In this document: piece after piece, positions 2,970 through 9,240 of the stretch
Position numbering within the stretch: position 1 is the stretch's first letter
How the letters are laid out: the number at the start of each line of letters is the position of its first letter
Assembly: GCA_937922735.1 (NCBI GenBank)
Contig: CALAJL010000134.1
Span: 1 to 34,498 of the forward strand
From: an uncultured Gammaproteobacteria bacterium
GTDB lineage: Bacteria; Pseudomonadota; Gammaproteobacteria; UBA4575
Length of the DNA stretch: 34,498 nt
Direction of reading: 5' to 3'
Program-made: the position numbers and the translations under genes
The notes under the pieces: generated by a model
What the model saw: the letters and a program-made list of their open reading frames with translations, nothing else
Told to the model about the DNA's origin: nothing
Database searches by the model: none

Positions 2970-4070
2970 TTAATCAGGTTGATGTTGTTTCTCTAAATAC
3001 TCATGCGACTGCATTTCTGTCAGTCTGCTTATAGTGCGTTCGAATTCAGATTTCAAACGTGAGCCTTTGTATAGTTTAGCTGGACAAGCCTCTGCTGACA
3101 AAATCAGTTTAACATTACGGTCGTAGAACTCATCAATCAATGTGATAAATCTTCTGGCTTGATCATCTTTACCATTAAAGATAGGTACGTGTGATAGAAG
3201 CACAGTATTAAATTCTTTAGCAATTGCAATATAGTCTGAAGCACTTCTTGGACTATCACATAATTCTTTAAAATCAAACCACGCGATTCCCTCTGCATGA
3301 CGTATAGATTGTAGCTCACGGTTATTAATTTTTAACTTTTCCCATGACTCATTACTTCGTTCTGTTGCAAGTTTTAAAAAGCTACGTTCTAACCAATCGT
3401 GAGAATCAACATTGATAGGGGAGTTATATAGGTCATTTTTTTGTAAAAACTCAAATCGATGATCTATTTCGCCACCTAGATGAATAACTTTAGTATGATT
3501 TTGTAAGAGTTTGATGGTAGGAAGGAAGCGTGCACGTTGTAGACCATCTTTATATAGCAAACTAGGTTCCACGTTAGAGGTGGCAATTAAGGTAACATTA
3601 TTTTCAAATAAGCCCTCTAGTAAGCCCGCTAGAATCATGGCGTCACCAATGTCATTTACAAAAAACTCATCGAAACAAATTACTTTAGCCTTGCTTGAAA
3701 ATTCTTTGGCTACTAATTTTAAGGGATCTGGTTGATCACGGTAGTTGTTCAACATTGCATGCACTTGCTCCATGAATCGATGGAAATGTAAGCGCAACTT
3801 ATCCTGAAAATGAAGATTTGAAAAAAAGAGGTCCATTAAGAATGTTTTGCCACGCCCCACGCCGCCCCATATATAAAGCCCTTGAATGCGATTTGTATTG
3901 GATTTGCGTGATAAAAGAGTCGTAAATCGATTAATGATCGTGGATTCATCTGGACTATCCGCAGCAAGTTCATCATGCAAGACCTGTAAGGCATGAATTA
4001 CTTGTTTTTGATTAGGGTCTTCTACAAGCTGTTCACTATCAAGTAACGCTTGGTATACGGATTCAATCAT
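2970..4070 (-). CDS. zapE: Cell division ATPase ZapE (AFG1 family)
   Basis: This 366-residue P-loop ATPase has the AFG1/ZapE signatures: Walker A GGVGRGKT at residues 69-76 followed by FLMD, the HFHRFM segment at about 95-100, and Walker B ICFDEFFV at 131-138. In E. coli ZapE associates with the Z ring and helps division under low oxygen or heat stress. The mitochondrial homologue works in respiratory-complex quality control. The protein is cytoplasmic with no signal peptide. It is the first gene of a likely zapE-mdh operon. The ATG lies behind an AT-rich stretch without a visible ribosome site. Confidence 0.93.
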   Translation of the reverse strand: MIESVYQALLDSEQLVEDPNQKQVIHALQVLHDELAADSPDESTIINRFTTLLSRKSNTNRIQGLYIWGGVGRGKTFLMDLFFSNLHFQDKLRLHFHRFMEQVHAMLNNYRDQPDPLKLVAKEFSSKAKVICFDEFFVNDIGDAMILAGLLEGLFENNVTLIATSNVEPSLLYKDGLQRARFLPTIKLLQNHTKVIHLGGEIDHRFEFLQKNDLYNSPINVDSHDWLERSFLKLATERSNESWEKLKINNRELQSIRHAEGIAWFDFKELCDSPRSASDYIAIAKEFNTVLLSHVPIFNGKDDQARRFITLIDEFYDRNVKLILSAEACPAKLYKGSRLKSEFERTISRLTEMQSHEYLEKQHQPD

Positions 4071-4298
4071 TATTTTTATTATTTATTAATTGAGTCGAGT
4101 GAGACTGGATACCGTGTCTGTCGGGTTGTTTTTCTTTGCTCTAATCCCCCAGTATAAATAGAAAACAACTGCTAAGGGGTGCAATAGATAGTTAAATATT
4201 TGGATATGTACACAAAACATGTTGTGCGGTAAGTGAGATAAATGTGCCAAAAAACCGTTAACAATCAATGTACTTACGTTACTTTAATGATATAAATT

Positions 4299-4312
4299 GT
4301 CACAAATGTGAC
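4299..4312. repeat. Palindrome GTCACA-AA-TGTGAC, possible regulator site
   Basis: Two perfect 6-bp arms (4299-4304 and 4307-4312) flank AA. The half-sites are those of CRP-type regulators but in inside-out order. The right half with its flank (TGTGACCAA, 4307-4315) recurs exactly at 8260-8268 before the PEP-CTERM gene. No known regulator can be named from the sequence. Confidence 0.35.
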
Positions 4313-4388
4313 CAAAATTGTCGATAATCTAAGTAATGAATGTGCACGGTATTTAGGTAAGTGGCTGAAAATCAAGAAAATAGGGTTT

Positions 4389-4417
4389 TTGGCATTAAAA
4401 ATGCTTGTTTATATACG
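4389..4417 (+). promoter_or_regulatory. Sigma-70-type promoter for the candidate small RNA
   Basis: TTGGCA at 4389-4394 (4 of 6 to consensus, keeping the key TTG) is separated by 17 nt from TATACG at 4412-4417 (4 of 6). Transcription would start near 4424, about 90 nt before a strong terminator. Confidence 0.55.
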
Positions 4418-4423
4418 AGCCTC

Positions 4424-4514
4424 TCAACATGATACGAATATCCTCTATTTGTAACTGTTGTTATTCTCGACTCCTCCTGGATTCGGCCGTCTTATTAAGA
4501 CGGCCTTTTTTTTT
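4424..4514 (+). ncRNA. Candidate small RNA or leader/attenuator transcript, about 90 nt
   Basis: It is defined by a well-spaced promoter on the left and a strong Rho-independent terminator on the right, with no trusted gene between. Just before the terminator stem a second small hairpin can form (CGA-C-TCC at 4468-4474 with GGA-T-TCG at 4479-4485), presenting a UCCU loop at 4475-4478 that is complementary to Shine-Dalgarno sequences. The last base of this hairpin is shared with the terminator stem. An alternative reading is a leader peptide: an ATG at 4430 opens 34 codons, including a Cys cluster and three Leu codons in a row, that run through the terminator, suggesting attenuation of nagZ 100 nt downstream. 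I recognise no known RNA family. Confidence 0.4.
4485..4514 (+). terminator. Strong intrinsic terminator upstream of nagZ
   Basis: A perfect 9-bp stem, GGCCGTCTT at 4485-4493 pairing with AAGACGGCC at 4497-4505, has a 3-nt loop and is followed by nine T's. It lies in front of nagZ rather than behind a gene, so it must end a short transcript starting in this gap. Confidence 0.93.
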
Positions 4515-4614: not shown

Positions 4615-5664
4615 ATGTCACTTGGCCCATTAATGGTAGATCTTGCTACAGATTGCATATCTGAGCAGGAAATGAAATTGCTTCAATCACCACAGGTGGG
4701 TGGTGTAATTCTATTCAGCCGAAATTTTACTTCAGTGGAACGTCTGATTGCACTGATCGATGATATCCATGAATTACGTCACCCAAGATTGTTAATAGCA
4801 ATTGACCAAGAGGGTGGTCGCGTACAACGCTTAAGAGAAGGCTTTACTCAACTTCCGGCAATAAATCTTTTAGGTAAGGTTTATGATGTTGATCCTAAAC
4901 GTGCGAGTGAGCTAGCCACGGTGAGTGGTTGGTTAATGGCATCTGAATTGCGTTCGGTAGGTATTGATTTTAGTTTTGCACCCATACTAGATTTGAACTT
5001 TGGTGTGAGCCAAGTAATTGGTGATCGTGCATTTCATAAGGACCCGGAAATAGTAGCAACCTTAGCGGGTCGCTATATTCAAGGTATGCGAAATGCAGGT
5101 ATGCAAGCAGTGGGCAAGCACTTTCCAGGTCATGGTGCCGTGACAGCTGATTCGCATATTGAACTTCCAACAGACAAACGTGCATTCCAAGATATTGCAA
5201 TGCAAGACTTAGTGCCATTTAAGCGCATGATCGATCAAGGTCTTGCAGGTTTGATGAGTGCACATGTCATATATGAAAAAGTTGATCCTATTATTGCAAC
5301 GTTTTCAAAACTGTGGCTGCAAGATGTGCTGAGGAAACAACTGGAATTTGAAGGCGTAATTTTTAGTGACGACTTAAGTATGAAAGCTGCAGATTGTAAT
5401 GATGAATATTTACTGCGTACGCAGAAAGCCTTGGATGCCGGTTGTGATATGGCATTAATTTGTAATTCTAGTGAAAATGCCTGCCTAGTAGCGGAGCAAT
5501 TAGGTGATTATAACAATCCAGCTTCACAAATACGTTTAACTCGTATGCATGGTGGTAAGAATCCACAAGCTTATGAAGAATTAAGAAACTCAAGTGAATG
5601 GAAACAAGCGGTAGCCCAGGTGGAGTCATATCAGGATTCACCTTATGGCGAACTAACTCTATAA
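4615..5664 (+). CDS. nagZ: Beta-N-acetylhexosaminidase NagZ (peptidoglycan recycling)
   Basis: This glycoside hydrolase family 3 enzyme removes N-acetylglucosamine from anhydro-muropeptides in the cytoplasm during cell-wall recycling, and thereby affects ampC-type beta-lactamase signalling in many relatives. The 349-residue length is normal and there is no signal peptide. Visible signatures are IDQEGGRVQRL at 63-73, KHFPGHG at 168-174, the DSH catalytic dyad (Asp179 with His181), and SDDLSM with nucleophile Asp253. There is no visible Shine-Dalgarno sequence before the ATG. It is the first gene of a tight run: the channel gene begins 11 nt after its stop. Confidence 0.97.
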   Translation: MSLGPLMVDLATDCISEQEMKLLQSPQVGGVILFSRNFTSVERLIALIDDIHELRHPRLLIAIDQEGGRVQRLREGFTQLPAINLLGKVYDVDPKRASELATVSGWLMASELRSVGIDFSFAPILDLNFGVSQVIGDRAFHKDPEIVATLAGRYIQGMRNAGMQAVGKHFPGHGAVTADSHIELPTDKRAFQDIAMQDLVPFKRMIDQGLAGLMSAHVIYEKVDPIIATFSKLWLQDVLRKQLEFEGVIFSDDLSMKAADCNDEYLLRTQKALDAGCDMALICNSSENACLVAEQLGDYNNPASQIRLTRMHGGKNPQAYEELRNSSEWKQAVAQVESYQDSPYGELTL

Positions 5665-8324: not shown

Positions 8325-8472
8325 AAAATAATATGTGTGGTTATTAGAATGATTCAACTGGCAATTAGTACAGTTGGTCGAAAAATATAAACCATGCCAT
8401 GCATGAGGTTATTTTTTGAAGCTAATTGTTCATGCAATTGATTTTATATGTTCGATATCCAGGGAGGATGTT

Positions 8473-9240
8473 ATGAGAGGAAATTCAAAATTTAGAAAAC
8501 TCGTTATAGGTGCTGTGTTTTCTGCATGCGTATCGATGACCACCGCGAATGCAGCCATTATCGAGCTTGCACTTGTGATTGATGGTTCGGGTAGTATTTC
8601 AAGTTCTGATTTTGCGTTGCAAACAGGCGCTTATGATAATATTTTTAGTAATAACTTTTTAGGCAGCTTTGTTAATCCAGGTGACACATTGTATGTAAGT
8701 GCATTCCAGTTTTCCAATAATTTCACTCAAGAGATTGGTTGGACATTAATAGATAATAATGCAGCGGCAGCTGCGTTTGGTGGCCTATTTCCGGGTATAA
8801 CACAACAAAATAGTACAACTAACACATCACTTGCAGTAAATATGGCTGCAGCAAGTATTCTTGGAAATGGCATCGCGGGTGATAGGCTAGTGATTGACGT
8901 ATCAACTGATGGATTGCCAAACGTAGGTGGTGGTCAAGCGGGTGCTAATATGGCTGCTGCAGATGCACTAGCAGCGGGTATTACCGTAAATGCAATCGGA
9001 GTAGGCTCTGGTGTTAATTCAACATTTTTAAATGCCTTTTCAACCGCGGGTGGCGGATTTTTTGAAACAGCTGCTAACTTCAATGAGTACGAAGCCGTTT
9101 TAGCCAGAAAAATTAGAAGGGAAATAACGGGTGATCCTGATCCTATGGATCCGGTTGATGTGCCAGAGCCTGCTTCAATGCTTTTATTAGGCATTGGTAT
9201 GTTAGGGCTTGGTGCAGCTAGAAGAAAAAAATTAATATAA
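8473..9240 (+). CDS. Secreted von Willebrand factor A protein with PEP-CTERM sorting signal
   Basis: This 255-residue protein starts at the ATG behind GGGAGG at 8462-8467; a longer frame from a TTG at 8416 lacks a ribosome site. A signal peptide covers residues 1-27, ending ANA. The von Willebrand A domain follows, with the MIDAS motif DGSGS at 37-41, a TNTS segment near 115 and STDGLPN for further metal ligands. The C-terminus is a textbook PEP-CTERM tail: VPEPAS, a hydrophobic helix LLLGIGMLGLGA and a basic ARRKK end. Such tails are recognised by exosortase EpsH/XrtA, which should be encoded elsewhere in this genome. A DUF1194-like VWA assignment is possible. It probably acts at the surface or in extracellular matrix; the partner is unknown. 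It stands alone, with its own regulatory region and terminator. Confidence 0.9.
   Translation: MRGNSKFRKLVIGAVFSACVSMTTANAAIIELALVIDGSGSISSSDFALQTGAYDNIFSNNFLGSFVNPGDTLYVSAFQFSNNFTQEIGWTLIDNNAAAAAFGGLFPGITQQNSTTNTSLAVNMAAASILGNGIAGDRLVIDVSTDGLPNVGGGQAGANMAAADALAAGITVNAIGVGSGVNSTFLNAFSTAGGGFFETAANFNEYEAVLARKIRREITGDPDPMDPVDVPEPASMLLLGIGMLGLGAARRKKLI

Follow-up and report, generated by a model that had tools for sequence, protein, structure and literature searches.

Between zapE and nagZ of an uncultured gammaproteobacterium there is a gap that looks as if it were transcribed on its own, and the question is whether it houses a small RNA, an attenuator of nagZ or the beginning of a short peptide. 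The window, i.e. the whole stretch of 34,498 nucleotides that was analysed, has zapE at 2970-4070 on the minus strand (NCBIfam ZapE) and nagZ, the neighbouring beta-N-acetylhexosaminidase gene, at 4615..5664 on the plus strand (NF003740, 455.6 bits with a cut-off of 207). A few genes downstream of nagZ, at 8416-9240, a protein with a PEP-CTERM sorting signal is predicted (TIGR02595, 26.9 bits, cut-off 16). The original prediction described 4389-4514 as a candidate small RNA or attenuator behind a -35/-10 promoter. From the comparison with related genomes we conclude that it is a real and conserved small-RNA gene, which by its sequence is sigma54-dependent, and that the gap has the following features.

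4295..4322, plus strand: conserved block AATTGTCACAAATGTGACCAAAATTGTC, seen by eye in the aligned upstream regions of the genera g1 and g4, where an enhancer-binding activator of the sigma54 promoter may bind
4389..4404, plus strand: sigma54-type promoter TTGGCATTAAAAATGC, with GG at 4391-4392 and GC at 4403-4404, GG-N10-GC being common to the family elements
4416..4514, plus strand: small RNA of about 98 nt, from the models R1, R2 and R3 and the pair counts, its putative start 12 nt after the -12 GC
4425..4460, plus strand: 5' hairpin with the loop UCCUC, helices 1 and 2 of the pair counts and present in the predicted fold
4468..4480, plus strand: candidate seed CGACTCCTCCTGG, a Shine-Dalgarno complement, conserved in the family and predicted to be mostly unpaired
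4485..4514, plus strand: intrinsic terminator with a 9-bp stem and nine T, from the sequence and compensatory changes

The part between 4424 and 4514 (91 nt) folds at -28.9 kcal/mol, and 200 dinucleotide shuffles give -12.3 +/- 2.7 (z -6.1). The sequence confirms the terminator that had been described, a perfect 9-bp stem and nine T; stem and 3-nt loop occupy 4485-4505, before the T run. Folding also predicts the second hairpin of the original description, with its UCCU loop (GACUCC-UCCU-GGAUUC at 4469-4484). This hairpin is weak and not conserved; the conserved part is the CUCCUCCUG stretch. The main 5' hairpin at 4425-4460 was not singled out in the original prediction. When the RNAs of the relatives are folded, the terminator is formed in all of them but the divergent RNA of G010, where it is weak.

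All 19 genomes of the family have nagZ, and in 14 of them, our own included, the element is found upstream in the same orientation. The full element is present in 11 genomes, belonging to the genera g1, g3, g4 and g5, and the three genomes of g2 (G004, G009 and G012) have the promoter, the hairpin, GUUGUUAUUCUC and the terminator without CUCCUCC. The element was not found in the nagZ loci of the five g6 genomes, neither by reading nor with model R1 or R3, and since g6 was scanned only around nagZ these genomes may have a copy elsewhere. Model R1, made from four sequences, recovered the other seven full elements of the family at E<=6e-8 and gave the three g2 elements E values of 0.007-0.11 (both in 19 loci); L030, which has a second, terminator-only row, was excluded from A7. 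Whole-genome model scans covered three of the 19 family genomes (G000, G005 and G010), the others being scanned at their nagZ loci, and our own genome has a single copy of the RNA with a second match at chance level (E 2.3). Strong matches outside the family were not found when the gap was searched with BLAST against 55 genomes. Conservation of stem and loop in relatives with a conserved nagZ had been proposed as a check on the small RNA. The stems are kept and co-vary, and the small RNA is thus not refuted by it; of the loop part less remains, as the apical UCCUC is conserved in genera g1 and g4 only and the element is not upstream of nagZ in g6.

The alignments in which pairs were counted had been fitted to the structure and therefore favour it. 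In the 11 sequences of the family, 11 of the 22 pairs show changes on both sides, compared with 6.0 in shuffles, and the contrast with shuffles and slid versions is still large; over three families 20 of the 22 show them, compared with 8.9. The covariation score is 0.379 in the family, where 92.8% of the cells are paired (0.205 in shuffles and at most 0.102 in slid versions), and 0.476 over the three families (0.186 and at most 0.145, respectively). Compensatory changes in the terminator amount to six of its nine pairs in the family and eight of nine over three families. Because compensatory changes fall in the transcribed part and an unpaired stretch is conserved in sequence, selection would act on the RNA, and for the same reasons it is highly improbable that we see nothing but a conserved DNA feature, a promoter and a terminator without any functional RNA product.

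The promoter is another one than was first thought. The letters that were taken for a sigma70 pair at 4389-4417 are certainly there (TTGGCA at 4389-4394, 17 nt, and TATACG at 4412-4417), but the '-10' is not conserved. Of the six positions of TATAAT it has four only in the window and in G005, and 0-3 in the other twelve of the 14 elements, and the sigma70 promoter was rejected on these grounds. Sites resembling sigma70 promoters are at chance level in the region, 11 with 11.2 expected from shuffles, and the proposed pair is not among the 11. What comparison shows to be common to all 14 elements, including that of the window, is GG-N10-GC, a pattern that alone also arises by chance upstream of nagZ genes without the RNA (e.g. 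in G016 and G008), and all 14 match the sigma54 consensus at 8 or more of its 10 fixed positions. In their alignment TTGGCAYnAnnnATGC is constant and the bases 3' of GC are variable, and TTGGCA at 4389 reads as the start of a -24/-12 sigma54 element. Sigma54 sites of Salmonella resemble it, e.g. that of fdhF, TGGCATAAAACATGCATA (PMC3844500). The gene rpoN was found in all 19 family genomes, in 18 of them above the cut-off. With the -24/-12 element placed here, transcription would start near 4416, where a conserved GAGCC block begins. Comparison across relatives thus resolves a site that in a single genome resembles a -35/-10 pair.

An activator may bind at 4295-4322, in the block whose conservation was seen by eye. 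PrsR was considered as such and rejected, as no genome out of the 19 in the family had a match above the cut-off of its model (TIGR02915). Another lead to the activator is found in G123 (L235, with the RNA at 1501-1587), where a perfect palindrome, GCACCGCGGTGGTGC, lies upstream of the sigma54 promoter, and it resembles an NtrC site.

Model R2 (11 sequences) matched 13 of 369 genomes of the class at E<=0.01, three of these in the family. The sigma54 pattern, the hairpin, GUCGACUCCUCCUG and the terminator are all present in G168, G374 and G279 (f151), and the RNA of G374 is directly upstream of nagZ. Upstream regions of nagZ were surveyed in the best-scoring 129 of the 306 non-family genomes that have the gene, some of those listed being omitted, with about 700 nt each (164 nt for L182, and the 29 loci L104-L132 cut approximately at contig ends), and in three of the 129 (G374, G353 and G144) the sigma54 pattern is followed by TCCTCC within 30-130 nt. 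R2 and R3 recover the same three and match G079 (f62) more weakly; R2 adds two or three at chance level. Model R3, with 13 sequences from three families, gave 20 of the 369 class genomes at E<=0.01 and 18 matches outside the family; L039, L041 and L043, with antisense rows in A8 and A9, were excluded from A10 and R3. The sigma54 pattern is not part of the R3 model, and it is present at all five non-family matches used in training and at three of the 13 held-out matches (G123 of f106, G379 of f158 and G163 of f146), compared with 0.39 expected from the same-locus rate. It is absent from the other 10 held-out matches, some of which may be due to chance or represent a related but different group of RNAs. 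L236, L241, L244 and L245 (G356, G260, G148 and G382; f131 and f10) form a subgroup that has GTGACTCCTCCTGA before or with its terminator and no sigma54 pattern. CUCCUCC is kept together with the sigma54 pattern in six families. A pattern scan of contigs gave 12 loci, seven from the own family, one from an Acidihalobacter MAG (L062, the same element) and four others. The pattern matches L065, L068, L069 and L071 were discarded; they look like chance and have no terminator in the displayed sequence.

The RNA is close to nagZ in G374, G353, G144, G123 and G379. Since G353 and G144 were found by searching nagZ upstreams they are not independent evidence of linkage, and G374, G123 and G379 come from whole-genome scans; G163, where the contig end is too near the RNA, was left out of the judgement. 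In G123 the RNA is upstream of nagZ at a distance of about 870 nt, and a frame on the opposite strand separates the two. The first match of G379 is about 1.1 kb upstream of the gene, and here, too, another frame intervenes. In G168 the distance is about 9 kb and in G279 about 185 kb. No nagZ is found within the fetched loci of the matches that do not have the sigma54 pattern. As linked RNAs occur in other families and the linkage is interrupted or missing in some, comparison shows it to be old but not obligatory: it is fixed inside the family and broken in G123, G379, G168 and G279.

The same distances bear on the idea that the RNA is a cis-acting 5' leader, so that the sigma54 promoter would drive nagZ, with hairpins and terminator attenuating the read-through. 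Such a leader would fit well with the family, where the orientation is the same and the T run is 70-187 nt from the nagZ match in 14 of 14 elements, and with the position directly upstream of nagZ in G374, G353 and G144, but it is difficult to combine with the frames that intervene in G123 and G379 and with RNAs located elsewhere, as in G168 and G279. The terminator is also formed in the predicted folds except that of G010, and an unsystematic look at them revealed no alternative antiterminator. We regard the leader as quite improbable, and the attenuator of nagZ that was originally suggested as unlikely and disfavoured by the intervening frames and unlinked copies. The leader peptide fares no better. 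Its ATG does exist, at 4429 and thus one base off the 4430 first given, but an ATG is present in 5 of the 14 elements, the frames differ, and only that of the window reaches the terminator. A short frame which is not conserved over 14 elements was rejected as a peptide gene, and this also weakens the case for a leader of nagZ.

The candidate seed is CTCCTCCTG in 10 of the 11 full family elements and CTCTTCCTG in G010. Comparison shows CUCCUCC(U) to be the most constant feature outside g2, and it complements strong Shine-Dalgarno sequences. Its predicted unpaired probability is 0.58-0.99 in 19 RNAs, with g1 and g4 at only 0.58-0.59. The small RNA of the original prediction is well supported by the conserved structure with its compensatory changes, the promoter pattern and terminator of its own and the stretch complementary to Shine-Dalgarno sequences, and a promoter and terminator of its own together with a conserved stretch predicted to be unpaired are also what is expected of a small RNA acting in trans. 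It is in our opinion probable that this is a free-standing sigma54-dependent RNA that acts in trans and uses the CUCCUCC seed to block ribosome binding sites.

Candidate targets were sought with CAGGAGGA-N(2-10)-ATG, which occurs in 77 rows in 11 family genomes compared with 14 for the reversed pattern, an excess that mainly consists of ordinary Shine-Dalgarno sites. The best candidate is gltA (citrate synthase), with CAGGAGGA before the start in six of six g3 and g5 genomes. It was rejected as a conserved target, for there is no co-variation with the seed: the g1 genomes bear the seed and lack the site, and two g2 genomes without the seed, G009 and G004, have retained the site unchanged or nearly so. 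The gltA leaders themselves (L323-L327, L331 and L341) have GAATCCAGGAGGAC before the start codon in g3, g5 and G009, and a near form in G004. Such constancy is unusual for a leader, and the RNA described in this study does not account for it. Other clusters with CAGGAGGA join G005, G007, G010 and G013 (presumably a membrane protein), G002 and G007 (which we take to be a transporter permease), and G001 and G002 (presumably an MscL-like protein).

That the co-variation test left no target would also be expected if the sigma54-dependent RNA binds a protein or serves as a decoy for another RNA, without pairing to ribosome binding sites. The g2 elements agree with this, for they have no seed and yet retain promoter, hairpin and terminator, and there is a precedent in GlmY, which is a decoy (PMC7073468). 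We nevertheless consider it unlikely, since outside g2 no other part is as constant as CUCCUCC, which six families share, and inspection by eye revealed no protein-binding motif that is repeated.

No family of Rfam reached its cut-off in the whole window, and in the 14 loci no small-RNA family did, the only match there being one tRNA. With relaxed thresholds RF02278 scored 32.2 bits (cut-off 50), suhB 26 (cut-off 41) and VqmR 24.7 (cut-off 76), and membership in these and other families was rejected, the scores being below the cut-offs. RF02278, the Betaproteobacteria toxic small RNAs with bdhR1 of Burkholderia cenocepacia and S17 of Bordetella pertussis, is the one most alike in that CUCCUCC, GGAUUC and the terminator align to the model, but the model has no 5' hairpin and the score is 32.2 bits where 50 are needed. 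S17, kin of bdhR1, represses messages at their ribosome binding sites with unpaired sites, one of the messages being that of a sigma54 activator, and is Hfq-dependent; its promoter is of the sigmaA type, whereas the RNA studied here has one of the sigma54 type (S17 as described in PMC11722255). By analogy with S17, a translational repressor acting in trans is the most likely function.

When the class was scanned with RF02278, 139 of the 369 genomes had matches at E<=0.01, two of them above the cut-off. The best 30 of these loci (L074-L103) do not resemble the RNA upstream of nagZ: 19 carry CATCCTCCTTTGGTGG or the form C[AC]TCCTCC, and only two have a sigma54-like pattern before TCCTCC. By eye they often lie behind a TTGACA..TATTAGA promoter, and the pattern TTGAC-TATTAG, which was set too narrow, is found at three of the 30. 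Three tandem matches, about 150 nt apart, are seen at G279:C3:217943-218301. The RF02278-like RNAs, widespread in the class as these matches indicate, are an under-annotated group of small RNAs.

Sigma54-type promoters also precede the genes of GlmY and GlmZ in enteric bacteria (PMC3844500), but there is no Rfam match to them here and no common sequence was found. The Qrr RNAs of Vibrionaceae are likewise sigma54-dependent and use enhancer-binding activators (PMC10162802); they differ in that our RNA has no Rfam match to them and in its neighbourhood, as it adjoins nagZ. The suhB/mmgR family (RF00519) has a similar cUCC-rich unpaired stretch before its terminator, and the match is below the threshold as given above. 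Literature searches of open-licence papers brought up no title or opening of an abstract in which this RNA is described. As far as the searches go, the RNA family is new, and its kind is already known.

In the mechanism that we propose, RNA polymerase with sigma54 and an enhancer-binding activator would transcribe about 98 nt from around 4416 to the intrinsic terminator. Between this and the 5' hairpin the CUCCUCCUG stretch would be mostly single-stranded; it would pair with Shine-Dalgarno sequences in messages from other loci and block the binding of ribosomes, and a chaperone such as Hfq would probably take part in the pairing.

To our knowledge few families of sigma54-dependent small RNAs have been described, and quorum sensing and the supply of amino sugars are among the central decisions that the known ones govern. 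A wider reading, possible though doubtful, is that the RNA belongs to an old and undescribed family of sigma54-controlled anti-Shine-Dalgarno RNAs, which at least five families of Gammaproteobacteria have kept close to nagZ. A signal from a two-component system or another enhancer-binding protein would then damp the translation of a set of messages whose ribosome binding sites are strong, those of sigma54 activators possibly among them (cf. S17), in a feedback loop tied to the recycling of the cell wall. A further family of sigma54-dependent small RNAs, spread over several poorly studied lineages, would give a handle on their sigma54 signal and a regulon that can be tested.
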